Positions 6,481 to 60,471 of a stretch of DNA of 64,000 nucleotides are shown here, one piece after another. Where the stretch lies: assembly GCF_000427405.1 (NCBI RefSeq), contig NZ_KE386491.1:1905001-1969000 (forward strand), read 5' to 3'. Numbering within the stretch: position 1 is the first letter of the stretch; every line of letters starts with the position of its first letter. The notes beneath the pieces are model-generated. The model did no database searches, was not told where the DNA came from, and worked only from the letters and a program-made list of their open reading frames with translations. This DNA is from Flectobacillus major DSM 103. GTDB lineage: Bacteria; Bacteroidota; Bacteroidia; Cytophagales; Spirosomataceae. The position numbers were made by a program, and so were the translations under genes.

Positions 6481-6656
6481 TAAACATGAGTTATCCCGAA
6501 TTTTGGAACTAAGATTATTCTCCAACTATTTATCAAAAAAAGCGGTCGAAAATTTTTTTTCGACCGCTTTTTTTGATATTATTTTAGGCACACAATATTA
6601 CGTATCTAAGATAAGGTAATCACCCATTCACTCAATTAGGAATGACACATGTTTAT
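6481..6656. repeat. Dispersed intergenic repeat, copy A
   Basis: The left end TAAACATGAGTTATCCCGAA starts one base after the peptidase stop. The right end, read on the minus strand, is TAAACATGTGTCATTCCTAA followed by TGAGTGAATGGGTGATTACC, matching the left ends of copies at 41931, 53781 and 60310. The element therefore has inverted termini. A terminator-like hairpin fills its centre. The minus-strand TAA at 6655-6653 is the stop codon of the barstar-like gene. No coding sequence is visible inside. Confidence 0.75.
6531..6578. terminator. Bidirectional terminator in repeat copy A
   Basis: A 22-bp stem, with GCGGTCG and CGACCGC at its core, AAAA/TTTT inside and A7/T7 outside, closed by TTTT. 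It serves the convergent peptidase (+) and ribonuclease/inhibitor (-) transcripts. Confidence 0.85.
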
Positions 6657-7069
6657 GCTTCATCTTCGTAAGTAATACCAATTGTTTCTAAATCATCTAC
6701 CCCCAGCTCTGAAGGTTCAATCAATATCTTAATAGATTTAAGGTCATCATCTCGTCGCCATTCTTCGGCTGCATCATCCAGTATTGTCAAGATAATTTCA
6801 CGTAACTCATCATTCTCTTCTGATAAGAACTCATCATAATTTCTAAAAACCAAGAAAATATTTTTCTCGCTGAGCCATTCTAAGTCATTAATCATTTCGT
6901 CGAAAGCATCTAAGTTAGCCCCAAATTCTTCAGGAAATTTTAAGCTTGCTGCGATATTAGTATAAAACTCTTTAACAGTTGTGTTTAATTCGCCATCCAC
7001 CATTACAACTAAAGTTTTGTGGTCTGATATTTTTGTACACAAGTCACTGAGAATTTTGAAATTAGCCAT
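6653..7069 (-). CDS. Barstar-family ribonuclease inhibitor
   Basis: This 138-residue acidic protein carries the barstar core: LKFPEEFGANLDAFDEMI (43-60) aligns with the LALPEYYGENLDALWDCL helix of Bacillus barstar. Barstar plugs the active site of barnase with residues of that helix; its key Asp39 appears here as Glu58, a conservative change, and Asp35 is kept as Asp54. The protein is longer than barstar (about 90 residues) by an acidic C-terminal tail. It starts 7 bp after the stop of the ribonuclease gene, so the two are co-transcribed, toxin first. There is no signal peptide, so it acts in the cytoplasm. The stop codon TAA lies in the end of repeat copy A. Confidence 0.85.
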   Translation of the reverse strand: MANFKILSDLCTKISDHKTLVVMVDGELNTTVKEFYTNIAASLKFPEEFGANLDAFDEMINDLEWLSEKNIFLVFRNYDEFLSEENDELREIILTILDDAAEEWRRDDDLKSIKILIEPSELGVDDLETIGITYEDEA

Positions 7070-7076
7070 AGTATTT

Positions 7077-7571
7077 TTAGTGTTGTAACTGTTTTGCAGG
7101 AATTAATTGGAAAGTACGGTAGTGGTCAGATGTATAATAGGCTTTTCCATCTGAGCCTGTTACCATTCTTTCAGCACCACGATTTTTCCCTTGTATTTTG
7201 GGGTTTACGTCCCATTCTTGATATACGATTTTTTGACCTTTTTCGTCTTCTGTTGGAAGTAATTTTTCGTAATTACTAAACTTTCTGCCACCCACATAAC
7301 CTTCTTTGGCGCGGCCATTTTCTTTAACATATCGTAAAATATCAAAAGCTTTTTGAGGAATATCTCCAGTAGATTGGATACGTTGATTTTGAGCGTTTTG
7401 ACGACTTTTATAGTCATATAGCTCTTTATCGTGTTTGGCTCTATGTTTTTTCTTTTTACTTTGAAAGTCATACTGATGCTCTTGGACAGAAGCCGAGGTA
7501 ACAAAAGAAGAGCTTCCTAGTAAAAAAATGACAAGCAAGAAAAGGCCTTTTATATATTTGAGAATTGACAT
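7077..7571 (-). CDS. Secreted barnase-like ribonuclease (N1/T1/barnase fold)
   Basis: The 164-residue protein has an N-terminal signal peptide or anchor (hydrophobic 9-27), a basic linker (38-64) and a microbial-ribonuclease domain (about 70-160). Barnase landmarks line up: Glu119 in YQEWDVNP (general base, barnase Glu73), Arg131 and Arg135 in NRGAERM (Arg83, Arg87) and His150 in YTSDHYRTF (His102). The E-R-R-H spacing is 12, 4 and 15 against barnase 10, 4 and 15. All four catalytic positions are intact, so it is probably active RNA endonuclease, exported. The inhibitor gene follows by 7 bp. Roles could be phosphate/nucleotide scavenging or a toxin against neighbours; the sequence does not decide. 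Confidence 0.88.
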   Translation of the reverse strand: MSILKYIKGLFLLVIFLLGSSSFVTSASVQEHQYDFQSKKKKHRAKHDKELYDYKSRQNAQNQRIQSTGDIPQKAFDILRYVKENGRAKEGYVGGRKFSNYEKLLPTEDEKGQKIVYQEWDVNPKIQGKNRGAERMVTGSDGKAYYTSDHYRTFQLIPAKQLQH

Positions 7572-7960
7572 GAAATAGAATGGTTATATATTTTCGGTAA
7601 AGCTACAAAATTATCTAAACGAGATAACGTTATAGAGGTAATAAACCCCAAAAAAACAGTAATTACTTTAAAATGAGATACTCAATAACGCCCCAAATAT
7701 GTCAATTGTTGTACCAATAATTAGATTCCTATTAAAATGCTATAACAGGTAGGATACATTCTTCTCTGAGATTTGCAAACCCCCAAAAAATTCACGAAAT
7801 TTGTATAAATAGGCTAATTTTTGGTATTTAGTCCATTGATATGGAAGCGTAAATTTCCGTAATATTTACCTTGATTGAAAGGATGTGTAGGCATTTTTAT
7901 GCGTGAACAGATGTACTTTCAGGCCAGTGTCTAAATGTCCCAAATTCGTAATCAAATAAT
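7572..7960. other. Intergenic region between the ribonuclease gene and gyrA
   Basis: 389 bp without a supportable gene between divergent transcripts. A minus-strand -7 box TAATTTTG (plus coordinates 7606-7613) could drive the ribonuclease/inhibitor operon, though no TTG lies at the expected -33 position. I see no convincing promoter pair for gyrA and no riboswitch-like structure. Confidence 0.5.
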
Positions 7961-10501
7961 ATGTCAGAACAATTTAGTAACATTATCCCCATCAACATTG
8001 AAGACGAAATGCGGGGAGCGTACATTGACTATTCAATGTCCGTAATCGTTTCCCGTGCCCTACCTGATGTCCGCGACGGATTAAAACCTGTTCATCGAAG
8101 AGTACTCTATGGTATGGACGAATTGGGCGTTAATTATAATAAGTCCTATAAGAAATCAGCCCGTATCGTTGGTGAAGTTTTAGGTAAATATCACCCTCAT
8201 GGCGACTCATCTGTGTACGATACCATGGTTCGTATGGCTCAAGAGTGGTCTTTGCGTTATCCATTAGTGGATGGACAAGGAAACTTTGGTTCTATCGATG
8301 GTGATTTCCCGGCAGCAATGCGTTATACGGAAGCTCGCTTGAAAAGAATTGCGGAAGAATTACTGGGCGATATTAACAAAGAAACAGTTGATTTTCAACC
8401 CAACTTTGATGATTCCTTAGAAGAACCTACCGTACTTCCTGCCAAAATCCCCAACTTGCTATTGAATGGTACATCGGGTATTGCTGTAGGTATGGCTACC
8501 AATATGGCTCCTCATAATTTGAGCGAAGTTGTAGACGGTATCGAGGCTTATATCAATAACCGTGATATTACTATTCTTGAATTGATGGAGTATGTAAAAG
8601 CTCCCGATTTTCCAACAGGCGGTACTATTTATGGTGTTCAGGGTATCAAAAATGCTTTTGAAACAGGCCGTGGACGTATTGTGGTAAGAGGTAACGCTAC
8701 TTTTGAAACCTCAAAAACAGGGAAAGAGCAAATTATCGTTTCCGAAATTCCATATATGGTCAATAAGGCTTCCTTGATTAAGCAATGTGCCGACCTCGTA
8801 AACGATAAAAAAATTGAAGGTATTTCCGAAATTCGTGATGAGTCGGATCGTCAAGGTATGCGTGTGGTATTTGACCTCAAGCGCGATGCCGTTCCAAACG
8901 TAGTACTCAATAACTTGTATAAGTATTCGGCTTTACAATCTTCTTTCAGTGTCAATAATGTTGCCTTGGTGAAAGGTCGCCCAATGACATTGAATTTGAA
9001 AGACTTGATTCACTATTTTGTGGAACACCGCAACGAAGTAATCGTTCGTCGTACACAGTATGATTTGAGAGAAGCTCAAAAAAGAGCTCATATCTTAGAA
9101 GGTTTTATTATTGCCCTCGACAACCTCGATGCAGTGATAAAATTGATTCGTGAGTCAAGAGATCCAAATGCTGCTCAACAAGGTTTAACTTCTACCTTTG
9201 GTTTGTCGGATATTCAAGCAAAAGCAATTCTTGAAATGCGTCTCCAACGCTTAACTGGCATGGAACGTGACAAGATTATTGCTGAATACGAAGAAATCCA
9301 ACGACAAATCAAGGATTTAGAGGATATTTTGGCAAGACCAGAGCGTCAGCTAGAAATTATCAAAGCTGAATTGAAGGAAATCAAAGAACGTTATGGTGAC
9401 GAGCGTCGTACTCAAATCAACATGACCGACGATGAATTCTCGGTAGAAGATATGATTGCTGATGACGAAATGCTGATTACTGTTTCGGCTCAAGGCTATA
9501 TCAAACGAACCCCTCTTTCAGAGTACAAAGCACAAGGACGTGGTGGTGTAGGCTCACGTGCAGTAGCTACTAAAGACGACGATTATACCGAACACTTATT
9601 TACAGCAACCATGCACAACTGGTTGTTGTTCTTTACAGAAAGAGGTAAGTGTTTCTGGCTCAGAGTATATGCTGTGCCTGAAGGTTCAAAAAATGCTAAA
9701 GGTCGACCTATCCAAAACTTGATGAATATTGAAAGCGGCGATTCTATTCGCTCAGTAATCAATGTAAAATCAATTACTGATGCCGACTATATCAATAATA
9801 ATTTTATTGTGATGTGTACAGAAGACGGTACTATCAAGAAAACTTCACTTGAAGCGTACTCTCGTCCTCGTCAAAATGGTATCATTGCAGTAACAATTCG
9901 TGAAGGCGACAGACTATTGGATGTAGCCTTAACCAATGGTAACAACCATATTATTATTGCTACCAACTCAGGAAGAGCTGTACACTTTGAAGAAAGCCGT
10001 GTTCGTCCGATGGGGCGTTCGGCAGCTGGTGTAAAAGGTATCTGGCTCGACGAAGAAATACCAACAGAAAAAGTAATTGGTATGGTATGTATCGAAAATC
10101 CAGAAACTCAACAGCTTTTGGTAGTATCTGAAAAAGGTTTTGGTAAACGCTCAGATGTTGAAGATTATCGCCTAACCAACCGTGGTGGTAAAGGGGTAAA
10201 AGCCTTAAATATTACCGATAAAACAGGTAACTTGGTAGCTATCAAGGAAGTAAACGATAATAACGACCTGATGATTATTACTAAAGCAGGTATTTTGATT
10301 CGTATTGCAGTAGCTGATTTGCGTGTAATGGGCCGTAATACTCAGGGTGTTAAGTTAATTCGTTTGAAAAATGAGTCAGATGAAATTTCTTCTGTAACTA
10401 AAATTGTAAAAGATCCAGAAGAAGAAGTTACTGAAACAGACCCAGAAGTTATCGTAAAGCCTGAAAACACAGAGAATACAGAAGGAAATTCTGAAGCGTA
10501 G
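7961..10501 (+). CDS. gyrA: DNA gyrase subunit A
   Basis: The 846-residue protein starts [47 protein letters not shown] (conserved GyrA N-terminus). The active-site tyrosine is Tyr122 in [10 protein letters not shown], the same number as in E. coli. The C-terminal half shows six beta-pinwheel blades, with the GyrA box seen as QGRGGVG (about residue 525), which supports gyrase rather than topoisomerase IV. With GyrB it introduces negative supercoils using ATP and is the quinolone target. The extreme C-terminus is acidic. The gene stands alone with a terminator after it; gyrB is not in the window. Confidence 0.97.
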
Positions 10502-10510
10502 TCATGAGTA

Positions 10511-10550
10511 ATTTAGGCAGAATAGGGGATAAGCCTTTTTCTGCCTAAAT
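10511..10550 (+). terminator. Terminator after gyrA
   Basis: ATTTAGGCAGAA at 10511-10522 pairs with TTCTGCCTAAAT at 10539-10550 and is followed by TTTTATAAATTTTTTG. It lies 9 bp after the stop. Confidence 0.75.
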
Positions 10551-10587
10551 TTTTATAAATTTTTTGTCTTTTTATAGTACAACTAGA

Positions 10588-10628
10588 GGCAAATTTGCCA
10601 AAATAGCATTTTCTTTGATATGCTATTT
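10588..10628 (+). promoter_or_regulatory. Palindrome and hairpin upstream of the exported TPR gene
   Basis: GGCAAATTTGCC at 10588-10599 is a perfect 12-bp palindrome. Directly after it AAATAGCAT (10601-10609) pairs with ATGCTATTT (10620-10628), followed by TACTTTTTT. The second hairpin resembles a weak terminator or attenuator 32 bp ahead of the ATG at 10661. Confidence 0.45.
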
Positions 10629-10660
10629 TACTTTTTTAAAACCAAACCATTTACCAAACA

Positions 10661-12145
10661 ATGAGAAAACTAACATTTGCTCTTTTTACAGTTGTGATGA
10701 CAGGAGGAGCAACTTATGCACAAACAGACAAGTTGCTTTTGGAAGCTCAACGTAAAACGATTTTAGAAGCTAGAAAAAAAGCAGACGAGGCCATTACTAA
10801 AAAAGATTCAGTAAAAGCAAAAACATGGTTGACAAGAGCCGAAGCTTATTTAGATTTAGCTAACTCACAAGATGCCGAGTTGACCAATCAAGTACCTGAT
10901 GCAGCGTTTACGGCTGTTGCTTCTTTGAAAAAAGCTATTTCATTAGATGTTAAAGATGGCAAAGAGGGTTCTGTAGCTGCTGCTGCTAAAAAATTCTTAG
11001 ATGTTACTTATTCTAAAGAAGGTAAAGCAGAAGGAGATGGGCTGAAACTCTACGGTGCATTTATGAATGCAGGTATTGCTAAATACCAAGCCAAAGATTA
11101 TGTTGGAGCATTGAAAGACTTACAAATGGCTTCTCAAGTAAGTTCAAAAGATACTACTGCTGCCATGTATACAGGTATTATTGGACAAATGGCCAAAGAT
11201 GAAAGTGCTGCAAAAACTGGTTTTGAGAAATTCATCGCTTTAGGAGGTAAAGACCCAGGTATTTTCTACAGTTTGACTCAAATCTATAAAGATGAGAAAA
11301 ACGAAGAAAAAGCATTAGCCACATTAGAAAAAGGTATCCAATTGCACCCTGAAAACAAGGATTTGAAAAACGAGAAAATCAACTTGTACTTGGCGTTCAA
11401 AAAAATCGACCTTGCTATTGCAGATTTACAATCGGTTGTTAATAAAGACCCATCTAATGTTCAGACTGTACTTAACTTGGCAATTCTTTTTGACAATAAA
11501 GCTGAACAATACAATGCTGAGATTCGTGAAATCAAAGATAAGTTAGCTGAGAATGACACAGAAGGAGTGAAGAAGAAAATCGCTGCTCAAAAAGATAAAG
11601 TAGACGCTTTTGAATCAGAAATCAAAAGATTAACTGATAAAATCAAAAAAGACCCTAAATCGGCTGTAGCAACAAAAAAACAAATTGCTGAAATTACTAA
11701 GCAAAGAGATGCTGAAAAAGCTGAATTAGAAAATTTGAATGCTGAATTGGCTAAGAAAGCTTCTGCATCGGGTAATGTAGCTGAATTGACTGCTAAATTG
11801 AACGAATTGCAAGAAAAACAAAAAGCAGCCAAAGCTCAGGCTTTAGTAAACTACGACAAAGCTTTGAAAGCTGATCCAAATAACTACGATGTAAACTACA
11901 ACTTAGGTGTTATTGCTTTTAACGAAGCTGTTGTATTGAACAAGAAAGTAGGCGACATGGCAATGGATGAGTATAAGAAAGATGGTAAAGCCGCTGAAGC
12001 AACAAGAGATGCGAAATTTAAAGAGGCTTTAAATTTCTTTGAAAAAGCTTACTCAATCAAAAAAGAAGATGAAGTAAAAGAAAACTTGAAGCAATTGTAC
12101 CGAGTTTTGAAAATGGAAGATAAATTGAAGGAATTAGGAGAATAG
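10661..12145 (+). CDS. Exported tetratricopeptide-repeat protein with coiled-coil insert
   Basis: The 494-residue protein has a signal peptide (MRKLTFALFTVVMTGGATYA, cleavage likely before QTDK). TPR-type helices run from about 30 to 280 (for example KAISLDVKDG, ALATLEKGIQLHPENKDL, AIADLQSVVNKDPSNVQTVLNLA). A lysine/glutamate-rich coiled coil follows (about 285-385), then further TPRs to the end. TPR proteins are scaffolds; no enzyme domain is seen. Periplasmic location is inferred from the signal peptide. It is transcribed alone, with its own hairpin-bearing leader and a strong terminator. I do not recognise a specific characterised homologue. Confidence 0.8.
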   Translation: MRKLTFALFTVVMTGGATYAQTDKLLLEAQRKTILEARKKADEAITKKDSVKAKTWLTRAEAYLDLANSQDAELTNQVPDAAFTAVASLKKAISLDVKDGKEGSVAAAAKKFLDVTYSKEGKAEGDGLKLYGAFMNAGIAKYQAKDYVGALKDLQMASQVSSKDTTAAMYTGIIGQMAKDESAAKTGFEKFIALGGKDPGIFYSLTQIYKDEKNEEKALATLEKGIQLHPENKDLKNEKINLYLAFKKIDLAIADLQSVVNKDPSNVQTVLNLAILFDNKAEQYNAEIREIKDKLAENDTEGVKKKIAAQKDKVDAFESEIKRLTDKIKKDPKSAVATKKQIAEITKQRDAEKAELENLNAELAKKASASGNVAELTAKLNELQEKQKAAKAQALVNYDKALKADPNNYDVNYNLGVIAFNEAVVLNKKVGDMAMDEYKKDGKAAEATRDAKFKEALNFFEKAYSIKKEDEVKENLKQLYRVLKMEDKLKELGE

Positions 12146-12168
12146 TCTGTTCTGACAAATTATTAATT

Positions 12169-12205
12169 AAAAAATCCGTAAGCGTTACGCTTACGGATTT
12201 TTTTT
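12169..12205 (+). terminator. Terminator after the exported TPR gene
   Basis: A 15-bp perfect stem (AAAAATCCGTAAGCG with its complement) and a TTA loop, followed by a T run. Confidence 0.85.
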
Positions 12206-12470
12206 GTACATAAAAGTATTCTTTCAATCAAGGATTTACAGGAGAGTCTTATTTTTTCAAAGTTATATTTAACATAATATAAATTATAAAACATTTATAT
12301 TTTTATAGAAATGACCTTATTTACAGTACTTTACGGAGTAGTAGCTTGCATTAGTACTCTTCTTAATAACATTAAGTACTCTGCAAGTATCTCTACTTGA
12401 ATCCACTTAATAGTTATTGTATTTCATATAATTATATCAAAAATAGCCCAGAAATAGTAAAATTTTGAAT

Positions 12471-12530
12471 CGCCTGAGAATCGCGTATTTAAAATTATCA
12501 GTACTATTATCCAGAATATTCATTTCTGAG
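12471..12530. repeat. CTGAGAATCG palindromic repeat, copy 1
   Basis: About 60 bp starting CGCCTGAGAATCGCGTATTT and ending CAGAATATTC then ATTTCTGAG. It closely matches the segment at 33000-33060 in both ends and in length; the partly inverted ends (CTGAGAAT and ATTTCTGAG) allow a hairpin. Confidence 0.6.
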
Positions 12531-12562
12531 GAATGATGAATTTTGTCTAAAAAATCAAAAAA

Positions 12563-12588
12563 GCGTCCATGAATCAGTTCATGAACGC
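12563..12588 (-). terminator. Terminator after the MazG-like gene
   Basis: GCGTCCATGAA pairs with TTCATGAACGC (one mismatch) around a TCAG loop, with an A6 run on the plus strand, that is U6 in the minus-strand transcript. It starts 7 bp after the stop codon. Confidence 0.7.
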
Positions 12589-12594
12589 CCGGAG

Positions 12595-13062
12595 TTACTG
12601 GAGAATCGCTTCAAGATTCGCTGGTGAATAATTGACCGATTTTAGGATTTTATTATCGGCTCTACGGTATACCAAGTACTTGTCGCCATCCTCTTGAATA
12701 TAAGCTTCTGTACCATCTTTATCAAAATAGAATTTTATAGTCTGCTCGGCTTCTTCCAGAGTACTACAAGCCTTGCTCATATTAGAGCGTTGTACTTCGT
12801 TAAATAGTGCCACAAATTTATCGCCCAAGCCAAACTCTAATACTGCCCCCGAAAGTACATATTGAATATCGCACAAAGCATCTGCAATTTCGACAATATC
12901 ATTATTCTTAATACCTTCTTCTAGTTCTTTTAATTCTTCAGCAATAAGACTTACCCTAAGGCTTGTTCTCTCTGCAGCAGGTATTTGTGGGGTCGCTAAT
13001 ATAGGAGCTTTAAATGTTTTATGAAATAATGCAACCTGATTAAGTGAATCCAATTTTTCCAT
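12595..13062 (-). CDS. MazG-like (PRA-PH superfamily) nucleotide pyrophosphohydrolase
   Basis: This 155-residue protein carries the all-alpha NTP-pyrophosphohydrolase pattern: Glu42-Glu43 and Glu46 in AEELKELEEG, and Asp61/Asp65 in IADALCDIQYVL, which would hold Mg2+. Members of this superfamily hydrolyse the alpha-beta bond of (d)NTPs or phosphoribosyl-ATP and clean up non-canonical nucleotides. The C-terminal part (about 110-155) is a small extra domain with KFYFDKDGTEAYI and is less familiar. It is not hisE, since no histidine genes adjoin it and the motif context is MazG-like. It stands alone; the substrate is unknown. Confidence 0.75.
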   Translation of the reverse strand: MEKLDSLNQVALFHKTFKAPILATPQIPAAERTSLRVSLIAEELKELEEGIKNNDIVEIADALCDIQYVLSGAVLEFGLGDKFVALFNEVQRSNMSKACSTLEEAEQTIKFYFDKDGTEAYIQEDGDKYLVYRRADNKILKSVNYSPANLEAILQ

Positions 13063-14424
13063 GTATCTCAGTAATGAATGTTGTTTATCTAAAATAACTG
13101 CAAGTTAGCCTATTCTGAGCTATTGATAATTACCAAACAAGAATATTTCCCAATAAAATATTAAATCAATGTTTTTGTTATATTTATCACGGATATTTGT
13201 CGTTTAAATATATAATTTACCCAATATGTAACTAGTTGATATTCAGGTGTTTATATATCCACGTGGAACAGTTTACTGAATTGCTGTTTTTCACGATAAA
13301 AAAGAAGAATTTTGAGTGTAGTTATTAGTTAATAAAATAGGTTAAGTGCCTTATAGTCAGATTGTTGTATTGTTATGAGGGCGCTAAATAAGTATAAAGT
13401 GGTATGAGAGAGCTTAAAATAATATATAGCTCTATGATGATATGGGTAGGTAGGGCTTATAGATAAAGACCTAATTATTGGAAAGGGATAGAAGGTAAGC
13501 AAACTGGGAAAGAGATAAATGATAATGATAAAAAATATAAAATTAAATAATTATAATTTTATACTCCCCTATTATTATTCTTTTTTCCTCCTTCCCTAAC
13601 CTCTTATTTATTTATACAATTTTAGTTTTAAGCCTTTATTTATTTGTGGTTAAACGCTAGCATTGATTTGTGGTTTTTTGCACCTCTCCTGCCCTTAAAA
13701 TGACTAATACACCTCCTATTTGAGGGTATGCTTACTGGTAATAATTGGGATAATACTAAAGAGATAATCCCATAAGTATCAAAAGACATTGGAGTATAAG
13801 AGAGCAAATATGTAAACATAACCTCATTTATTTATCGTAAATAACTACTAACTATGGATATTATAAGTTTAAAAAGGCTTAGATAACTAGTTTTAGTAGG
13901 ATAAAAAGTAATCTTAAATTACAATATTTGAGGTTTCTGGATAGATTTTGGTACCAGAAAGCACTTATTAATACTTTTAAAAGAGCTAGAAATTTAGCTT
14001 AGGAGTCAGTAAAATTTACCTATTAGCTAGTGAATAGATTCGCCAATACCGAATGCTTTATCCATTCAAATTATCAATGCTACATTGTCTATTTATAAGC
14101 TAGCTAGGGATTTTTGGCATATAGCAAGGCCATTATTCTGTTGAAAATAATAATTGATATAAGCCTTAAATCTGTTGAATTAACCCTAATACTAGCAATG
14201 ATTTCTTTCTTGACACTGGATAAAATAATACTATAAAATAGAGTATAATAAATATTGGCCTTATGAGAAAAATACAATTTGCAAAAGCCATTTGATTAAT
14301 GAGTATACCCTTGTAAAATAGGTATAATAAGACAATGCCATTTATTCCTTTTATACAAATTGGAATAAATGGCATTGTTACCAAAATATGATATTATCTT
14401 GATTGTATTATAATACCGTTGATT
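13063..14424. other. Large gene-free AT-rich interval
   Basis: About 1.36 kb with no supportable coding region; the only longer minus-strand frame (14166-14384) is a hydrophobic translation of A/T-rich DNA with no family resemblance, and overlaps the hairpin at 14332-14378. Direct copies of ATTTGTGGTT occur at 13642 and 13665. I see no tRNA, transposase remnant or riboswitch. Confidence 0.5.
14332..14378 (-). terminator. Strong hairpin downstream of the XRE-type gene
   Basis: A perfect 17-bp inverted repeat (ACAATGCCATTTATTCC and its complement) around a 13-nt loop. It lies 47 bp after the XRE stop on the minus strand. There is no clear U tract, so it may be a processed or partial terminator. 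Confidence 0.6.
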
Positions 14425-14892
14425 TTAACCGATTGGTTTACTTTCCATAAAAGTTCCGTCAGTATAGAATATCACAATACGTTCTATCTGTTTTCCAGAA
14501 GGCTCTGGAGAATTTGATGGAGGAACCACGGGCCTTTCTATCTTTCTTCTTAAAGGATTCTGAGTAGGACGTTCATCAAGCTGCTGAGTTTTAAACGATT
14601 CTCGCGGTGTTGTATCTTGAGGTATATTGCTCGTAACTCTCTGATTATAAATTGATTGTGGCGAGTTTTGAGGCTGTTGGAAATTAGGTGTTTCAGTGTC
14701 AAAAAGTAGCCAATCTCTATTAATATCAGGGAAAATCTTCAATATTTTCTGGATAATATCCAAACTTGGCTTATTTCTCCCAGAAAGTATATGAGAAATA
14801 CTACTTCTTTGAACTCCGATAGCATCTGCAAAGAAACTAGGAGACATCCCTTTATCTACAATAATCTGTTCTATTTTTTTATTCAAGTCCAT
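14425..14892 (-). CDS. XRE-family HTH regulator with disordered tail
   Basis: The 155-residue protein has an N-terminal helix-turn-helix of the Cro/C1 type (IEQIIVDKGMSPSFFADAIG then QRSSISHILSGRNKPSLDII, residues about 6-55). The remainder is Pro/Gln/Ser/Arg-rich and probably disordered, ending in a short beta-like stretch (QIERIVIFYTDGTFMESKPIG). Small XRE proteins of this layout are frequent in Bacteroidota, but I cannot name a target. The upstream 110 bp holds several copies of ACAAATGTA-like sites, consistent with autoregulation. It is flanked by long non-coding stretches. Confidence 0.8.
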   Translation of the reverse strand: MDLNKKIEQIIVDKGMSPSFFADAIGVQRSSISHILSGRNKPSLDIIQKILKIFPDINRDWLLFDTETPNFQQPQNSPQSIYNQRVTSNIPQDTTPRESFKTQQLDERPTQNPLRRKIERPVVPPSNSPEPSGKQIERIVIFYTDGTFMESKPIG

Positions 14893-15000: not shown

Positions 15001-15044
15001 CGAAATAGTAGTTTACACCTGTATCCTTTATGAGAAATGATAGT

Positions 15045-41925: not shown

Positions 41926-41930
41926 CAAAT

Positions 41931-42060
41931 ATAAGTCATCCCAATGTGAGTGAATGAGTAATTATTTTTGACTATAATTTTCACCAGTAGTGATGCAATG
42001 CTTTGATGTTGAACATAAAAAAGGCGTTCGAAATTAGTTTTCCGAACGCCTTTTTTATGT
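41931..42060. repeat. Dispersed intergenic repeat, copy B (right end missing)
   Basis: ATAAGTCATCCCAATGTGAG and then TGAATGAGTAATTATTTTTG match the left end of the family, and the middle (CACCAGTAGTGATGCAATGC) nearly equals copy C at 53832. The centre holds the terminator hairpin. No inverted right terminus is recognisable before the slyD-like gene end at 42074. Confidence 0.7.
42014..42059. terminator. Bidirectional terminator in repeat copy B
   Basis: A 17-bp perfect stem, CATAAAAAAGGCGTTCG and its complement, around a 12-nt loop; it separates the convergent deaminase (+) and FKBP (-) genes. Confidence 0.88.
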
Positions 42061-42073
42061 TAAATATCAATTA

Positions 42074-49477: not shown

Positions 49478-49550
49478 TGATCCCGCTGGGATTCGAACCC
49501 AGGACCCATACATTAAAAGTGTATTGCTCTACCAGCTGAGCTACGGAATC
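49478..49550 (-). tRNA. tRNA-Lys(TTT), copy 1 (most downstream in transcript)
   Basis: On the minus strand a 73-nt cloverleaf: acceptor GATTCCG pairs with CGGGATC, D-arm GCTCAGCTGGTAGAGC, anticodon loop CTTTTAA with TTT, T-arm CTGGGTTCGAATCCCAG. CCA is not encoded. Confidence 0.95.
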
Positions 49551-49635
49551 GTGTGATTAGGCATATTGCCTTTTCACTATATATAAAGTGGTTCACGCTG
49601 GAACCGAAGGGAAAATTTGCCACTGGCAATCTTCG

Positions 49636-49708
49636 TGATCCCGCTGGGATTCGAACCCAGGACCCATACATTAAAAGTGTATTGCTCTACCAGCTGAGCT
49701 ACGGAATC
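49636..49708 (-). tRNA. tRNA-Lys(TTT), copy 2
   Basis: Sequence identical to copy 1; separated from it by 85 bp of unrelated DNA. Confidence 0.95.
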
Positions 49709-49798
49709 TTAACCTACTCTAATAATCTTGTATCTCACAAAAATAACGCCTTATTTCTGCTACTGTTTGTCAACCCTAAAGTCGATAACCTTTTTTTG

Positions 49799-49871
49799 TG
49801 ATCCCGCTGGGATTCGAACCCAGGACCCATACATTAAAAGTGTATTGCTCTACCAGCTGAGCTACGGAATC
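49799..49871 (-). tRNA. tRNA-Lys(TTT), copy 3
   Basis: Sequence identical to copy 1; separated from copy 2 by a 90-bp spacer that recurs between copies 3-4 and 4-5. Confidence 0.95.
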
Positions 49872-49961
49872 TTAACCTACTCTAATAATCTTGTATCCCA
49901 CAAAAATAACGCCTTATTTCTGCTACTATTTATCAACCCTAAAAGTCGACAACCTTTTTTG

Positions 49962-50034
49962 TGATCCCGCTGGGATTCGAACCCAGGACCCATACATTAA
50001 AAGTGTATTGCTCTACCAGCTGAGCTACGGAATC
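49962..50034 (-). tRNA. tRNA-Lys(TTT), copy 4
   Basis: Sequence identical to copy 1, same spacer type on both sides. Confidence 0.95.
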
Positions 50035-50123
50035 TTAACCTACTCTAATAATCTTATATCCCACAAAAATAACGCCTTATTTCTGCTACTGTTTATCAAC
50101 CCTAAAGCCGACAACCTTTTTTG

Positions 50124-50196
50124 TGATCCCGCTGGGATTCGAACCCAGGACCCATACATTAAAAGTGTATTGCTCTACCAGCTGAGCTACGGAATC
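50124..50196 (-). tRNA. tRNA-Lys(TTT), copy 5
   Basis: Sequence identical to copy 1. The spacer to copy 6 is 109 bp and unrelated to the repeated spacer. Confidence 0.95.
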
Positions 50197-50305
50197 TTAA
50201 CCTATGCTATTATTTTCTTTGCGATTGGAATTATGAAGACAAATGAACCTAAACTCTTTTATCACTTTCGCTATTCTAATCTATTTGTATCGTTAGATAC
50301 TTTTG

Positions 50306-50378
50306 TGATCCCGCTGGGATTCGAACCCAGGACCCATACATTAAAAGTGTATTGCTCTACCAGCTGAGCTACGGAATC
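50306..50378 (-). tRNA. tRNA-Lys(TTT), copy 6 (promoter-proximal)
   Basis: Sequence identical to copy 1, first in transcription order, with a promoter at 50442-50472. Confidence 0.95.
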
Positions 50379-52330: not shown

Positions 52331-52338
52331 TAATTTTG
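52331..52338 (+). promoter_or_regulatory. Candidate -7 box close to the rlmD start
   Basis: TAATTTTG ends 7 bp before the rlmD ATG at 52346. If functional, the transcript would have almost no leader. No TTG is found at -33, so it is weak. Confidence 0.3.
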
Positions 52339-52345
52339 CATCCTT

Positions 52346-53764: not shown

Positions 53765-53780
53765 GGTTTCTTGATATACC

Positions 53781-54053
53781 AACATAAGTCATCCCTAATT
53801 TAGTGAATGGTGATTATTTTGAATATGATTTTCACCCGTAGAGATGCAATGCTTTGAAATTTAACATGCAAAAGGCGTTCGAAATTAGTTTTTCGAACGC
53901 CTTTTGCGTGAATAGCTTCTCAATCCCTATCATTTGAGCAATTGATAAGCCTCTTCAATGTTCACTTGGCTACCTGATGAATATCAACAAACACAAAGAG
54001 ATAATCTAATCTCTTTTAATATTACCCAAAATTCGGGATGACTCATGTTTATA
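53781..54053. repeat. Dispersed intergenic repeat, copy C (complete)
   Basis: The 273-bp element starts AACATAAGTCATCCCTAATT and ends with the inverted form: on the minus strand TATAAACATGAGTCATCCCG then AATTTTGGG. It includes the CACCCGTAGAGATGCAATGC segment shared with copy B and the terminator hairpin. It fills the whole rlmD-dnaB gap (convergent genes), 17 bp after one stop and 11 bp after the other. No coding sequence. Confidence 0.8.
53868..53907. terminator. Bidirectional terminator in repeat copy C
   Basis: A 17-bp stem, GCAAAAGGCGTTCGAAA and its complement, around 6 nt. It serves the convergent rlmD and dnaB. Confidence 0.88.
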
Positions 54054-54063
54054 GCATATATAT

Positions 54064-55671
54064 CTAAAATGGGACATCCTGATTAGGAGGTGTTGCACCA
54101 AATGGCATATTGCCATTCGACGGAAGGTTATTCATTTTACTACCTACAGTTCTGGCACCACCTTCAAACGCCGCCAATGAATCGTTGACAGCAGCAAACG
54201 ATTGTAAATTATCGCTTCCAGCAAAGCCCGAGTAGTCTGTAGCGTCGAGGTCGCAGTATTTGGTATACTTACCGATAAAGCGAAGCTGAACGGTATCTAA
54301 TGACCCCGCACGGTTTTTAGCAATAATTAATTCCCCTACCCCAGCAATCGAATTTCCATTTTCGTCTTGAGTTATACCGTAATATTCTGGACGATAAATA
54401 AACATTACCATATCGGCATCTTGCTCAATAGACCCCGACTCCCTCAAATCGGAAAGTTGTGGTTTTTTGTCTCCTCCACGGGTTTCTACGGCACGGCTCA
54501 ACTGCGATAGGGCAATCACAGGTACATCTAATTCTTTGGCAAGTTGTTTTAATGAACGTGAAATATTGGCAATTTCTTGTTCACGGTTTCCTCCCCCTTT
54601 TCCGCCCGACTCGCCTGACATCAATTGGAGGTAATCAATCACGATCATTTGAATATCGTGCTGAGCCTTCAAACGACGAGCCTTGGCACGAAGTTCCAAG
54701 ATAGAAAGGGCTGGCGTATCGTCAATAAATATAGGGGCGTTGGTAAGTTTACCAATTTTGGCATGAAGCTGAGCCCATTCGTGAGGGGCAAGATTACCTT
54801 TTCTAAGCTTTTCAGATTCGAGTTCGGCCTCAGACGAAATAAGACGATTTACTAACTGTACCGACGACATCTCTAGCGAGAAAATAGCCACAGCTTGTCC
54901 AAAATCGACAGCAGCATTACGACAAGCCGACAAAATGAGGGCTGTTTTACCCATACCCGGACGAGCTGCAATAATCACAAGTTCGGTTTTTTGAAAACCC
55001 GACGTAATTCTATCTAAAGCACTAAAACCAGTAGGTACACCTGTAAGGCCGTCTTTCTGATTTTTTTTCATTTCTAATTCCAACAACGCCGTTCGCATAA
55101 TTTGCGACATATCAGCATAGTTTTTACGGATATTAGCCTCCGAAATTCTAAAAAGTTCTTGCTCAACCTTGTCCAACAACTGGAATACATCGGTGGTATC
55201 TTCGTAGGCCATTTTCTGGATTTCTGAAGAAACCGTAATCAATTGTCTTTTCAACGAATGTTCCACTACAATCCTAGCATGAAACTCGATATTGGCTGCC
55301 GAGTTGACCCTTTGGGTTAATTCGGCCAAATACGACACCCCACCAGCCATTTCCAATTCGCCATTCATTCTTAGCTGATTGGTAACTGTCAATAAGTCGA
55401 TAGGTTCTGATGCTGCAAATAATTGTGTGATAGCACCATATATTCTTTGGTGAGCCTCTTTATAAAATGAATCTGTTTTTAAAATATCAACAACTGCAGT
55501 CAGTGCATCCTTTTCTATCATCAAAGCACCCAGCACCGCCTCCTCCAAGTCGAGGGCCTGAGGAGGGATTTTTCCTAATCCTGTATCCAGCCAACGATTG
55601 GTTGCAGAGATTCTTCCCCCAGCAAAATTTGAGGGCTTTTTGAAGGTATTATTTCTATTAGACTGTTCCAT
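54064..55671 (-). CDS. dnaB: Replicative DNA helicase
   Basis: The 535-residue protein has the DnaB N-terminal domain (QALDLEEAVLGALMIEKDAL, then HQRIYGAI) and RecA-type ATPase with Walker A RPGMGKTAL and the Walker B-like MIVIDYLQLMSG plus ALSQLSRAVETRGGDKKPQLSDLRESGSIEQDADMVMFIYR. It unwinds DNA at the fork as a hexamer. A Gly/Pro/Asn tail follows the helicase core, the usual Bacteroidota extension. Single gene, convergent with rlmD. Confidence 0.96.
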   Translation of the reverse strand: MEQSNRNNTFKKPSNFAGGRISATNRWLDTGLGKIPPQALDLEEAVLGALMIEKDALTAVVDILKTDSFYKEAHQRIYGAITQLFAASEPIDLLTVTNQLRMNGELEMAGGVSYLAELTQRVNSAANIEFHARIVVEHSLKRQLITVSSEIQKMAYEDTTDVFQLLDKVEQELFRISEANIRKNYADMSQIMRTALLELEMKKNQKDGLTGVPTGFSALDRITSGFQKTELVIIAARPGMGKTALILSACRNAAVDFGQAVAIFSLEMSSVQLVNRLISSEAELESEKLRKGNLAPHEWAQLHAKIGKLTNAPIFIDDTPALSILELRAKARRLKAQHDIQMIVIDYLQLMSGESGGKGGGNREQEIANISRSLKQLAKELDVPVIALSQLSRAVETRGGDKKPQLSDLRESGSIEQDADMVMFIYRPEYYGITQDENGNSIAGVGELIIAKNRAGSLDTVQLRFIGKYTKYCDLDATDYSGFAGSDNLQSFAAVNDSLAAFEGGARTVGSKMNNLPSNGNMPFGATPPNQDVPF

Positions 55672-55865
55672 TAGTACAATTTTACAAATATTTTCTCAGA
55701 TTTCCGAAAACAAAAAACGCCTACACCTCCTAATGATTTGATTTACAGCCATTAAAAAAAACTTAGTATTTATGTTGTAAGAATAGAACACAAACTACCG
55801 TTATTTTTGTTAGTTTAGTATTCAATATTTTTTATTTCCTAAAAAACCTTTATTCATTCTTAGAT

Positions 55866-56864
55866 TTGACAGAAAAAGTAATCACCTTAGAAGACGTTGA
55901 GTTAGTAGGATTTCTCGGCGTGGAGAACAGCAACATCAAAGAAGTTGCTAAAGCCTTTCCTCAAAGTAAAATTATTTCGAGGGGAAACGAAATAACTATT
56001 CGTGGGTCAATTCCTGAGATAGTTAAAATTAACGAAATTTTAGATGCTCTTGTTGTTCACTATCAAAAGTATGGTAAAATTACTACCGAACAGGTAAAAA
56101 CATACGTTACTCTTGATAAAAATCCAACAGAAGAACCCCAAGTTCATTTAAAAGAAGAAGAGGATGTGTTATTGTACGGTACAAAAGGGGTTGTGATTCG
56201 GGTAAAATCGCCAAACCAGAAAAAACTGGTAGAAGCCGCCAACAATAACGATATTGTTTTTGCGATTGGCCCCGCTGGTACTGGTAAAACCTACACTGCC
56301 GTAGCTTTGGCTGTAAAAGCCCTCAAAAATAAAGAAGTCAAAAAAATCATTATTACTCGCCCAGCCGTAGAAGCAGGTGAAAACTTAGGTTTTTTGCCCG
56401 GGGATTTGAAAGAAAAAATTGACCCTTATCTTCGCCCTATTTACGATGCTCTCGACGATATGATTCAGCCCGAAAAGCTTAAATTCTTTATCGAAAACCG
56501 TGTCATAGAAATCGCTCCGCTGGCCTATATGCGTGGCCGTACCCTCAACAACGCCTTTATTTTGCTTGACGAAGCCCAAAACACTACGCCAATGCAAATG
56601 AAAATGTTTTTGACTCGTATGGGTATCAACTCGAAAGTAATTATCACGGGCGATAAGTCACAAATAGATTTACCAACAAAAGTAAAGTCGGGGTTGGTAG
56701 AAGCCAGCAAAATTTTGCAGGGTATCAAAGGTATTTCGTTTATCGAACTCGACGGTAAAGATGTTGTTCGTCACCGCTTGGTACGTGATATTATTATGGC
56801 TTACGACAAGGCTGATGCCGAAAAAGCAGAACACAAAACAACAAGCTCTTTTAATCACAGATGA
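55866..56864 (+). CDS. phoH: PhoH-family ATPase
   Basis: The 332-residue protein (TTG start at 55866, MTEKVITLEDVELVGFLG) has an N-terminal KH-like region, Walker A GPAGTGKTYTAVALAV and Walker B AFILLDEAQNTTPMQMKMFLTRMG. PhoH-like proteins (PhoH/PhoL) are predicted RNA-linked ATPases/helicases, often near ybeY. A -7 box TATTTTTG at 55802-55809 has no well-spaced TTG (24 bp). Its stop overlaps the ATG of the M43 protease gene by four bases (ATGA). Confidence 0.93.
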   Translation: MTEKVITLEDVELVGFLGVENSNIKEVAKAFPQSKIISRGNEITIRGSIPEIVKINEILDALVVHYQKYGKITTEQVKTYVTLDKNPTEEPQVHLKEEEDVLLYGTKGVVIRVKSPNQKKLVEAANNNDIVFAIGPAGTGKTYTAVALAVKALKNKEVKKIIITRPAVEAGENLGFLPGDLKEKIDPYLRPIYDALDDMIQPEKLKFFIENRVIEIAPLAYMRGRTLNNAFILLDEAQNTTPMQMKMFLTRMGINSKVIITGDKSQIDLPTKVKSGLVEASKILQGIKGISFIELDGKDVVRHRLVRDIIMAYDKADAEKAEHKTTSSFNHR

Positions 56865-58144
56865 GATTTATCACTTTAACATTCATCTTTTTGGTTACAT
56901 ACACCACATTTGCTCAAAACAAATGTGGTGTTGTTTTATACGATTCTTTGCAAGCTACCAAAATTGCTAATTGGCAAAGCCGTAAATCACAGTTTGAAAG
57001 CCAAATAAAGCAATTTTCCCAAACCACCAGCCAACTGAGAATAATGGCTTTTTCTACCATTCGGATTCCTGTTGTGGTGCATATTGTTCATAACAATAGC
57101 TCTGGAACTATTGGGGGCAGCAACAATAATAATATTTCGGACGAACAAATTGCGTCTCAAATCGAAGCTCTAAATGACGACTATCGCCGCAAATCGGGTA
57201 CTGCTGGTTATAATACCAATCCAGTAGGTGCCGATATGCAACTGGAGTTTTACTTGGCCGATTCACTAGCCCAAGGCCAGACAACCAAAGGTATTACTCG
57301 CCACTATGTCAACCATCAGAGCTTCGATTTTATTGCAGAGAATACCACTTTGGCTCAAATATCCACTTGGAATCCGCTCAAATACCTAAATATCTATGTA
57401 ACTCGTTCCAATGGTCGAGCCATTGGCTATTCGGGCTTTCCGTATGATAGCTTCTTGGAAGGGCTCAATCCTAATGCCTCCGACTTGTCTACTCAGCAAA
57501 TTTTTGATGGGGTTATTATCGACTATCGGTATTTTGGGCGTTGTTGTGGTAATATTTCGCAAGTTTATAACCTTGGCCGAACTACCACACACGAAATAGG
57601 CCACTGGCTAGGCTTACTACACCCCAATGGCGATACAAGTTGTGGCAACGATTATTGTGATGATACCCCTACTATCGAAAAGCTCAATTTAGAAACCAAT
57701 TGTAATCCTCTTACGTCTACCTGCAATGGTATTACGGTAAGCAACCAAATTCAAAATTATATGGACTATTCACCCGATGCCTGTATGAATCTGTTTACCA
57801 ACGACCAAAAAAATAGAACTCGTGCAGCCTTAGAACTTAGCTACCGACGAAAAAGCCTAATCAACAATGCTATTCACTTACCCGAAAGCAATACCCTTCA
57901 GGTAAGTATAGAACCCAACCCTGTTCAAAACAATGCCAATATAAAGGTATTGCTAGAAGGTAGCCAAAATATTACGGTACAAATTTATAATCTGGCGGGG
58001 GTACTTGTTTGGGAAGAAACACACAACAACCAAAGTTCAACCTACTTTGTTATCAAAACAACCTATTGGTCCAATGGCCTGTATTTTGTGAAGGTATCAA
58101 CACCCCAACAAACCGCCACTCAAAAAATGTTGATTAGCCGCTAA
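56861..58144 (+). CDS. Secreted M43 (pappalysin/cytophagalysin) zinc protease with T9SS sorting domain
   Basis: The 427-residue protein has a signal peptide (MRFITLTFIFLVTYTTFAQ), a catalytic domain with HEIGHWLGLLH at 244-254 (zinc His244, His248, His254; Glu245) and the Met-turn YMDYSPDACM. Cys-rich stretches (CGNDYCDDTPTIEKL, CNPLTSTCN) resemble cytophagalysin. The C-terminal 80 residues (SIEPNPVQNNANIKVLL ... QIYNLAGVLVW ... STPQQTATQKMLISR) are a type-A sorting domain for type IX secretion. It starts with ATGA overlapping phoH, so it is co-translated with a housekeeping gene, an odd partner. Confidence 0.92.
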   Translation: MRFITLTFIFLVTYTTFAQNKCGVVLYDSLQATKIANWQSRKSQFESQIKQFSQTTSQLRIMAFSTIRIPVVVHIVHNNSSGTIGGSNNNNISDEQIASQIEALNDDYRRKSGTAGYNTNPVGADMQLEFYLADSLAQGQTTKGITRHYVNHQSFDFIAENTTLAQISTWNPLKYLNIYVTRSNGRAIGYSGFPYDSFLEGLNPNASDLSTQQIFDGVIIDYRYFGRCCGNISQVYNLGRTTTHEIGHWLGLLHPNGDTSCGNDYCDDTPTIEKLNLETNCNPLTSTCNGITVSNQIQNYMDYSPDACMNLFTNDQKNRTRAALELSYRRKSLINNAIHLPESNTLQVSIEPNPVQNNANIKVLLEGSQNITVQIYNLAGVLVWEETHNNQSSTYFVIKTTYWSNGLYFVKVSTPQQTATQKMLISR

Positions 58145-58269
58145 AACAGCAGCTAAACCACAGACAATCAGCCAGATTATTGGTTATTCTAGGGTTTGCC
58201 TATTACCTTTACCGTTGGTTAATAATTAAATATTTATGTCGTTTTCTCAAAAAAACAGCATTCAGTAAA

Positions 58270-58289
58270 ACATTGTTTTTTTACAATGT
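58270..58289. promoter_or_regulatory. Inverted repeat upstream of the TetR-fold gene
   Basis: ACATTG and CAATGT 8 bp apart (58270-58275, 58284-58289), 26 bp before the ATG, a TetR-operator-like arrangement. Six-base arms in an AT-rich region can occur by chance. Confidence 0.35.
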
Positions 58290-58315
58290 GTTATCTGATT
58301 AAACAACATAATTTT

Positions 58316-58948
58316 ATGGAAAAAGCAGATAAAATAAAGCAGGCTTATATGGAATACTTTTTGGAAAATGGGACACAGCCTCAATCAGTGTATTCGTTTA
58401 CCAAAAAACTCAAAATAAAAGAATCTGAATTCTACGATTATTATAATTCTTTTGAATTACTAGAAAGTAGTATTTGGTTGGATTTCTTTAAAGAAACTAT
58501 TCAAAAAATAGAAGCAGAGCCTGTTTATGCCACTTATAGTGTAAGAGAAAAACTTTTGGCATTTTATTATACATGGATTGAGGTACTAAAACAAAACCGA
58601 AGTTATGCTTCTCAAACATGGCGTTTAATCGACAAACGTAAACTCAAAACACCTACGTTTTTGGTTGACCTCAAAAATGCTTTCAAAGAGTATTCACGTG
58701 ATTTGGTCATGGAAGGCAAAGAAAGCCGTGAAGTACAACCTCGCAAATACTTGGACGAACGTTATCCCGATGCTTTTTGGCTTCAGTTATTGATGGTACT
58801 CGACTTTTGGGTAAAAGACAAATCTAAAGGCTTTGAACAAACCGATGCCATGATTGAAAAGGCCGTAAATACCTCATTCGACCTCATGGCCAGTTCTGCT
58901 CTTGATTCGGTCCTTGATTTTGCCAAATTTTTATATCAAAATCGCTAA
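58316..58948 (+). CDS. TetR-fold protein paired with an ABC1 kinase
   Basis: The 210-residue protein (ATG at 58316, MEKADKIKQAYMEYFLENGTQPQSVYSFTKKLKIKESEFYDYYNSFELLESSIW) has a TetR-like N-terminal helix-turn-helix and a long helical C-terminal domain with a WIEVLKQNRSYASQTWRL stretch. The DNA-recognition helix (KESEFYDYYNSFELL) lacks the typical YxxFxxKExL pattern in part. The next gene, 36 bp downstream, is an ABC1/UbiB atypical kinase; in mitochondria the TetR-fold lipid-binding protein COQ9 and ABC1 kinase COQ8 act together in quinone synthesis. Whether this is a regulator or a lipid-binding partner is open. Confidence 0.8.
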   Translation: MEKADKIKQAYMEYFLENGTQPQSVYSFTKKLKIKESEFYDYYNSFELLESSIWLDFFKETIQKIEAEPVYATYSVREKLLAFYYTWIEVLKQNRSYASQTWRLIDKRKLKTPTFLVDLKNAFKEYSRDLVMEGKESREVQPRKYLDERYPDAFWLQLLMVLDFWVKDKSKGFEQTDAMIEKAVNTSFDLMASSALDSVLDFAKFLYQNR

Positions 58949-58984
58949 AAATAGTTCGTTGTTTTGCAACGAATATGCTATAAT

Positions 58985-60313
58985 ATGAAAGAACAAAATT
59001 CGATTCCCACCTCAAAAGTGGCACGAGCTACACAGTTTGTCAAAACAGGTGTTAAAATTGGAGGCAATTATTTGAAACATAATGTTAAAAAAATGATTGA
59101 CCCAAGTACCACCAAAGAGCAGCTACACCAAGAGAACGCTGAAGATATTTATTCATCGTTGAGCGAATTAAAAGGTTCGGCCTTGAAGGTTACGCAAATG
59201 CTCAGTATGGACAAAGGCTTATTGCCTAGGGCTTACCGCGAAAAATTTGCGATGTCTCAATATTCAGCCCCTCCACTTTCTGGGCCATTGGTTATCAAAA
59301 CTTTCAAAAAAAACTTGGGCAAATCTCCTTCCGAGATTTTTGATAACTTTGAAATGAATGCTAGCAATGCGGCCTCTATTGGACAAGTACACAAAGCAAG
59401 CCTCAATGGCAAAAAGCTAGCCGTCAAGATTCAATACCCTGGTGTTTCGGATAGTATTAGTGCCGACCTCAAAATGGTAAAACCTATTGCTATTGCGATG
59501 TTTGGCTTAAATGACAAAGACGTTGAACGGTACATGGGCGAGGTACAAGAACGCCTTTTGGAAGAAACTAATTACCGTTTAGAACTTCAACGCTCGGTAG
59601 AAATCTCGGAGGCTTGTGCTCATATCAAAGACATCTTTTTCCCGTCGTATTATCCCGAATTTTCATCCGATAAAATCTTAACGATGGACTGGCTCGACGG
59701 CTTGCACATGAAGGAGTTTTTGGAAACAAACCCTAGCCAAGAGGTAAGAAACCGTATCGGACAAGCCCTTTGGGATTTTTATGATTACCAAATACATACC
59801 CTCAAGCAAGTACACGCCGACCCACACCCAGGCAACTTTTTGTTACAACAAGACGGTACATTAGGTATTATCGACTTTGGTTGTATTAAAGTGATTCCTG
59901 AGGTTTTTTACGAAAATTATTTTGCTCTTATTAATTTTGATACGCTCGAAGATAATGACAAAATCAGCAAAATCTTTAATACCTTAGAGTTTATTGTACC
60001 GCAAGATTCGGCCGAAGAAGCTAAATTCTTTACAGAATTGTTCAAAGAAATGATTTTTTTATTAGGAAAACCTTTTGGTGAAGAACTGTTTGATTTCTCG
60101 GACGACGCTTATTTTGAGCAAGTATATGTTTTTGCCGAAAAACTTCAACATTTAGAAGAACTCCGAAACTCGAAAGTAGCCAGAGGTTCGCAACACGGTT
60201 TGTATATCAACCGAACCTATTTTGGGCTTTATTCTTTATTGAATGAGCTTCGAGCCAAAATTACAGTAACTAAACCCGAATGGTTACGTTCTAAAAAGCT
60301 ACAAGATGTATAA
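58985..60313 (+). CDS. ABC1/AarF/UbiB-family atypical kinase
   Basis: The 442-residue protein (ATG at 58985) has the ABC1 motifs: the KxGQ-type segment LKGSALKVTQMLSM (Gly replaced by Thr), the alanine loop NAASIGQVHKASL, Lys in LAVKIQYPG, EETNYRLELQRS, HADPHPGNFLL and the metal Asp in GIIDFGCI. These proteins are ATPases/kinases that assist quinone biosynthesis (UbiB, COQ8). This organism probably makes menaquinone rather than ubiquinone (menD present), so the lipid handled may be a menaquinone precursor. The TAA stop at 60311 is also the start of repeat copy D. Confidence 0.9.
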   Translation: MKEQNSIPTSKVARATQFVKTGVKIGGNYLKHNVKKMIDPSTTKEQLHQENAEDIYSSLSELKGSALKVTQMLSMDKGLLPRAYREKFAMSQYSAPPLSGPLVIKTFKKNLGKSPSEIFDNFEMNASNAASIGQVHKASLNGKKLAVKIQYPGVSDSISADLKMVKPIAIAMFGLNDKDVERYMGEVQERLLEETNYRLELQRSVEISEACAHIKDIFFPSYYPEFSSDKILTMDWLDGLHMKEFLETNPSQEVRNRIGQALWDFYDYQIHTLKQVHADPHPGNFLLQQDGTLGIIDFGCIKVIPEVFYENYFALINFDTLEDNDKISKIFNTLEFIVPQDSAEEAKFFTELFKEMIFLLGKPFGEELFDFSDDAYFEQVYVFAEKLQHLEELRNSKVARGSQHGLYINRTYFGLYSLLNELRAKITVTKPEWLRSKKLQDV

Positions 60314-60471
60314 ACATGAGTTATCCCAAATTTAGTGAATAAGTGATTATTTTTGAAGATACTTTGTAGCTAAAGATGTGTCATACTGACATTTAACATG
60401 CAAAAGGCGGTCGAAAAACTAATTTCGACCGCCTTTTTGATTTAAAAATTTGGAATGACTCATTGTTTATA
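60310..60471. repeat. Dispersed intergenic repeat, copy D (complete)
   Basis: A 162-bp element: left end ATAAACATGAGTTATCCCAA then ATTTAGTGAATAAGTGATT; right end on the minus strand ATAAACAATGAGTCATTCCA. The TAA of the left end is the stop of the ABC1 kinase gene. The central segment holds AAAGATGTGTCATACTGACA, then the terminator hairpin. Confidence 0.8.
60402..60438. terminator. Bidirectional terminator in repeat copy D
   Basis: AAAAGGCGGTCGAAA pairs with its complement around 6 nt, ending in T5, between the convergent ABC1 kinase and DUF3127 genes. Confidence 0.88.

Follow-up and report, generated by a model that had tools for sequence, protein, structure and literature searches.

Short repeats at convergent gene ends in Flectobacillus major and a related insertion sequence that appears to replace intrinsic terminators

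What are the short repeats that lie between convergent genes in Flectobacillus major DSM 103, and how did they come to lie there? The question was raised by a 64,000-nucleotide stretch of this genome (contig NZ_KE386491.1, positions 1,905,001 to 1,969,000; hereafter, the window). An initial annotation, made from the letters alone, had described four dispersed copies with shared inverted ends and a terminator-like core, all between convergent genes, and had proposed miniature inverted-repeat transposable elements (MITEs) or repetitive extragenic palindromic (REP) units. The four copies, here called A to D, are where it had placed them, with the ends it described, and each does lie between convergent genes, A and D overlapping the stop codons of their neighbors. 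That interpretation is supported in part; what it missed is that the elements occupy the place where relatives have a terminator. In our judgment, the best reading is very probably terminator-replacing transposition, in which the short elements bring a replacement terminator with them.

The terminal inverted repeat (TIR) common to the window copies is AAACATGAGTCATCCC, mostly followed by RAATTT. The genome-wide search for the terminal consensus that had been proposed as a check was made over the 6.22-Mb F. major genome (seven contigs) with the 16-mer at up to two mismatches, and yielded 196 ends (93 forward and 103 reverse), against 0 + 1 for the same pattern read backwards. We used the best 100 of these 196 places, and the sample is therefore biased to better-kept ends. 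Elements were called in 30 TIR places taken as 3-kb loci (27 used, the other 3 overlapping these), in 44 further stretches, and in the window. This gave 90 rows, some of them single ends or alternative calls that overlap, from which we retained 66 elements that have both ends and do not overlap one another. Ranging from 62 to 367 bp, with TIRs and long arms, these are too small for a transposase, as is expected of MITEs. At one mismatch, the TIR is present in 32 of the 119 genomes searched, F. major included: 112 places in F. major, 80 to 96 in each of the congeners G001 to G003, 105 in a member of another genus (G039), and 38 and 42, respectively, in two members of another family. Congener G004 has no place at one mismatch, many of the remaining positive genomes have few places only, near the control level (up to 2), and the plasmid records searched gave no match.

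The MITE-like reading is strengthened by relatives that have an insertion sequence (IS) with identical ends. TIR pairs 1.47 to 1.74 kb apart flank a transposase gene in G001, G021 and G104, and the congener IS, about 1.45 kb in length, has the ends of the short elements (AAACATGAGTCATCCC...GGGATGACTCATGTTT) and encodes an IS4-like DDE transposase. The autonomous IS whose ends the short elements match thus sits in relatives, not in F. major. When three of the transposases were searched against Pfam, the match was DDE_Tnp_1, above cut-off in one of the three. Among NCBIfam models, IS4, IS701 and IS1634 match, all below cut-off (for IS4, at best 50.9 bits against a cut-off of 160), and no IS1182 model, which this library should contain, is among the matches at E 0.1. 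The IS4 family is defined by a DDE domain with a Y-(2)-R-(3)-E-(6)-K motif. In six aligned transposases, D128 and D230 are invariant, as are Y353, R356, E360 and K367, which form this motif; one of the six has a 5-residue insertion within it. Target duplications of about 10-13 bp are typical of the IS4 family; neither the elements nor the IS have a duplication of this type. With the G001 transposase as query, matches were found in 11 of the 119 genomes, including 15 matches in G003, many of them cut by contig ends.

To judge from comparison with relatives, the IS stands in place of predicted bidirectional intrinsic terminators, from A-tract to T-tract, with the hairpin gone and no target duplication. 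For 20 IS ends of G001 and G003, homologous sequence was sought in 1.15 Mb of congener contigs and in eight stretches of 8 kb. Eleven ends have a homologue that lacks the IS, and all 11 abut the A- or T-tract of a terminator, one of them (L304) with an extra G. These ends represent eight or nine insertions, L168 and L299 being perhaps two sides of one. Two insertions are aligned on both sides. The first lies between convergent genes, where contig C5 of G001 has the IS and G003 has GATATT/AAAAAAGGCAAAGTCCACGGACTTTGCCTTTTTT/tgttat (slashes mark boundaries); the fit of the L226 left end follows from this comparison of G001:C5 with G003. At the second, G001 reads ttcaat/AAAAAAAGGCCAGCGAACGCTGGCCTTTTTTT/attctac, G003 reads ttcaat/IS/attctac (L298 and L302 are its two sides), and G002 has a 34-bp variant. 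In both cases, a hairpin of 32-34 bp is gone, exactly to the base, within flanks 85-95% identical to the empty site.

At six ends (L163 right, L168, L174, L304, L299 and L226 right), the homologue runs directly into an A-tract and hairpin. The comparator for L174 is a G002 stretch of 97.5% identity. For L163, L168, L304 and L299, the comparators are copies of the short element, so at these loci of G003 the IS sits on the short element's own terminator, giving nested copies. The idea that terminators are the target was recorded before orthologues were sought for five unresolved ends, chosen because their flanks seemed usable. Four of these ends, L298, L300, L302 and L303, then fitted to the base, and L170 gave no verdict; L300, whose junction falls within the T-tract, fits G001, G002 and G004, and L303 fits G002. 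Because the IS ends, AAA...TTT, coincide with the tracts of the target, the joint could be at any of these bases.

At the short elements, the relatives' hairpin is absent from all six sites that were counted, two of them in the window. At junction D, with the same gene pair, G001 to G003 have an ordinary bidirectional terminator, TAT/AAA...TAGCGTTGA..TCAACGCTA...TTT (CAT in G003), G004 has a different hairpin, and F. major has the element alone. At junction B, the ordinary terminator of G001 to G003 reads AAC/AAAAAAGTCGCATAG..CTATGCGACTTTTTT, and F. major has AAC/AAATATAAGTC. The other four sites are in congeners: G001:C5 195407 compared with G003, whose native hairpin has a weak T-tract; G001:C5 230845 (one TIR), also compared with G003; the right-hand element of G002:C152 (one TIR), compared with G001 and G003; and G003:C99 88474, compared with G001. 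One element end falls on an A- or T-tract at four sites (B, D, 230845 and 88474), a fit that for B and D depends on few flanking bases. At about 88474-88504 of G003:C99, two TIRs stand back to back in a 31-bp palindrome, and its flanks are perfectly inverted over 13 nt; this palindrome may have grown by template switching.

Several further sites were set aside. At copy C, G001 to G003 hold another repeat and G004 a bare hairpin; at G000 2044291, 617142 and 2065178, the congeners have other repeats or the neighbor is no orthologue; the second element of G002:C152 faces a hairpin in G001 and a decayed repeat in G003; and G001:C5 177392 and its G002 and G003 counterparts are old copies in all three. 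The 16-mer match at G001:C5 232909 is no element, as it is conserved in G003 without a gap.

Target duplications, the presence of which the initial annotation had left to be checked, are not seen: no direct match of at least 5 bp exists between the flanks of any of the 66 elements at boundary offsets from -6 to +6, and shorter matches are about as common as in shuffled pairs. By contrast, an unrelated repeat (about 166 bp) adjoining the G001 IS is bounded, as judged by eye, by an 11-bp direct repeat, ACATTTTCGAT, which stands single, as ACAGTTTCGAT, in G003. This repeat occupies about 3835-4001 of L226 (G001:C5), and a query containing it matched 41 times in G002, 20 times in G003 and 5 times in F. 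major, counting partial matches and the gene itself.

Inverted remnants in the flanks that score at least 9 are found at 3 of the 66 elements, against 1.0 expected (permutation p 0.03). We rejected insertion into a hairpin loop with both arms kept because this signal is weak. The same remnants are one point in favor of the most durable alternative to terminator replacement: ordinary insertion near gene ends, then decay and deletion of the redundant native terminator. Convergent ends tolerate insertions, an element that carries its own terminator frees the native one to decay, and some boundaries of short elements are inexact. However, both two-sided IS swaps are exact in well-preserved flanks, and the boundary is on a tract at every informative IS end. 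We therefore consider decay improbable.

Most short elements carry their own predicted bidirectional terminator, as the initial annotation had suspected for the window copies. Of the 66 paired elements, 53 yielded a hairpin with the form AAGGCGGTCGAAA...TTTCGACCGCCTT. Among these 53 hairpins, 7 of the 12 outer base pairs have changed on both sides with pairing kept, a count that is conditional on the finder's requirement for a perfect stem of at least 8. In 50 of the 66 elements, the best stem is flanked by A-runs and T-runs, and the element hairpin therefore reads as a bidirectional intrinsic terminator. A simple terminator scan, which was not used for counting, did not list the window elements' own hairpins, probably because the T-tract pairs within the stem. 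At gathering scores, the window's only Rfam matches are tRNAs, and five empty-site loci have none.

The proposed clustering at convergent gene ends is borne out. After removal of gaps longer than 1200 bp and of ends without a called neighbor, 79 occupied gene gaps remain: 58 convergent, 21 tandem and none divergent. The background comes from contiguous sequence totaling 1.23 Mb, of which most is from congeners and 64 kb from F. major; its gaps of 20-1200 bp are 142 convergent, 495 tandem and 142 divergent (binomial p ~1e-26 for the convergent excess). In the 17 tandem cases with a full element, the median distance is 20 nt to the upstream stop codon and 165 nt to the downstream start. The 48 convergent gaps with a full element have a median of 28 nt outside the element, versus 72 nt for 21 element-free convergent gaps of the same loci, which were picked around elements and so are not a fair sample. 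By our estimate, about 70 of some 700 convergent gaps, or about one in ten, are occupied in F. major. On the terminator-replacement reading, convergent ends are enriched because bidirectional terminators lie there. Random insertion without target choice, followed by survival at gene ends only, has the absence of occupied divergent gaps in its favor, since selection alone would also clear genes and promoters. Yet such selection explains neither the base-exact match to terminator tracts nor the lack of target duplications, and we regard it as very unlikely. A REP-type family moved by a Y1 enzyme of the REP-associated tyrosine transposase type, suggested by short palindromic units at gene ends, is scarcely credible and also unnecessary, although no search aimed at such enzymes was made, because identical ends bound IS copies with a DDE transposase and the elements have TIRs and long arms.

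Returning to terminator replacement, the following fuller account seems likely to us. A transposase outside the IS1182 family has evolved structural recognition of intrinsic terminators, which it swaps for its element; the damage is repaired by the replacement terminators that its passengers carry; by estimate, on the order of one in ten convergent ends of the F. major genome has been rewritten in this way; and passenger terminators are again targets, hence the nesting. The short repeats would be non-autonomous MITEs, mobilized in trans by the IS4-like DDE IS with identical ends and moving as the IS does. The transposase would recognize the hairpin, perhaps as an extruded cruciform, and the element ends would be joined at the hairpin foot, after which the hairpin arms would be trimmed off. 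Inverted-repeat-replacing transposition has been published for IS1272, of the IS1182 family (Wan et al. 2017, PMC5678879). The path proposed there would fit: the 3' ends of the element join the 3' feet of two cruciform hairpins, which are then trimmed away. Such a path would explain the replacement, the absence of duplications and the varied target sequence. The internal terminator of a short element would keep insertion nearly harmless and, as a target itself, would give rise to nested copies.

Several observations weigh against this reading or narrow it. Nine of the 20 IS ends are uninformative: five lack a homologue (L163 left, L169, L296, L297 and L164 right), two have weak matches (L173 and L301), and at two (L170 and L164 left) the neighboring sequence is another repeat, with no clear hairpin. 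With the L163 left flank as query, a single partial match came up, in F. major. No hairpin follows other copies of the repeat that adjoins L170. Both sides are aligned to an empty orthologue in two IS insertions only, a third (L163) is deduced from its right side, and the exact cases all come from two congeners, G001 and G003. The G068 IS has a long palindrome directly at its right end, and about 35 nt beyond the right end of one G104 copy lies a terminator-like hairpin; neither had an empty site for comparison, and hairpins can thus remain beside the IS. Among short elements, some boundaries fit only to within about 10 nt, two sites have a single comparator, and G003:C99 88474 is occupied by an element in G002 too, which makes the direction of change ambiguous. 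The gene calls come from a home-made codon-usage script, termination by the element hairpins is predicted from their form, and a structure model (mean predicted local distance difference test score, 48.9) was too poor and was not used. Finally, the matching transposase that the initial annotation had wanted sought exists in relatives, but F. major gives no match at E 1e-10, so that current mobility there is a possibility only.

Table 1. Element copies in the window. Limits were set by TIR matches; positions count from the first nucleotide of the window.
Feature	Position	Strand	Remarks
Copy A	6482..6654	.	Full element, both TIRs (TIR matches); spans stop codon to stop codon
Copy A, left TIR	6482..6497	+	
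Copy A, right TIR	6639..6654	-	Inverted
Copy A, terminator hairpin	6537..6572	.	
Copy B	41927..42070	.	Has left TIR (41927-41942), arm and hairpin but lacks right TIR; limit on the right approximate
Copy B, terminator hairpin	42014..42059	.	
Copy C	53780..54050	.	Full element
Copy C, terminator hairpin	53870..53905	.	
Copy D	60312..60467	.	Full element; one-base insertion in right TIR, so end is 60467 or 60468
Copy D, terminator hairpin	60402..60437	.	

The coordinates of the window copies are listed in Table 1. The genes that flank copy C are putative RumA- and DnaB-like genes. The second motif that the copies had been said to share, TTAGTGAATGAGTGATTA, is real, but it is also part of a separate and wider repeat set. 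At two mismatches, it has 49 places in F. major (control 9), 139-146 in each of G001 to G003 (control 2-7), and 223 in G030, a member of another genus (control 33). The motif occurs within many elements of F. major, and in G030 (loci L227-L231) it forms inverted pairs, with spans of about 57-167 nt in the five pairs read; these repeats may be a related family at gene ends. The repeat adjoining L170 is an 83-bp unit (positions 311-393, G003:C81) that, as a query, gave 34 matches in G001 and 14 in G002, mostly to that unit. Elsewhere in the window, six tandem tRNA genes of equal Rfam score lie on the minus strand at 49478-50378, and, among named records, the nearest match of one window protein is from Arcicella aurantiaca (82% identical; records of F. 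major itself were possibly excluded).

Group IIC introns also target intrinsic terminators; they are retroelements that insert beside the hairpin and do not replace it. The closest known system is IS1272. As described in its report (PMC5678879), that IS resembles the one studied here in its varied inverted-repeat target, replacement of the target hairpin, lack of duplication, and TIRs of about 16 bp, and the two-sided swaps show the same mode, with the target inverted repeat replaced and nothing duplicated. IS1272 differs in its transposase, the one here having weak matches to IS4, IS701 and IS1634 models and none to an IS1182 model at E 0.1; in its targets, the informative ones here being A/T-tract terminators; in the host group, here Bacteroidota; and in the large family of terminator-carrying short elements found here. 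The words terminator and MITE are absent from the main text of that paper.

The SPRITE repeat of Streptococcus pneumoniae is likewise small and terminator-like, with AAAA/TTTT ends and enrichment at convergent 3' ends; its report (PMC3049150) gives 30 copies in one genome, found no similar IS ends and had no empty site available. Unlike SPRITE, the elements described here have longer TIRs, a cognate IS and empty sites. A 2024 review of MITEs (PMC10969869) calls MITE-formed terminators conceivable, citing SPRITE. REP elements that serve as IS targets (PMC1525189) are a further parallel, since the palindromes into which an IS inserts are often located between convergent genes. In that system, the palindromes themselves form a repeat family, and the main text contains neither of the word stems 'replac' and 'duplication'. 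Among open-licence PMC papers, we found neither an IS4-like transposase nor a MITE family described as replacing terminators.

New here, relative to IS1272, are the different transposase group, terminators as targets, and passengers that carry terminators. The work points to hairpin-replacing transposition outside the IS1182 family, with the intrinsic terminator as a concrete natural target. It also suggests a strategy of insertion whose design makes it harmless, and which might provide a tool for terminator swapping, and it offers a simple reason for the gathering of small terminator-bearing repeats at convergent ends, as with the pneumococcal SPRITE.

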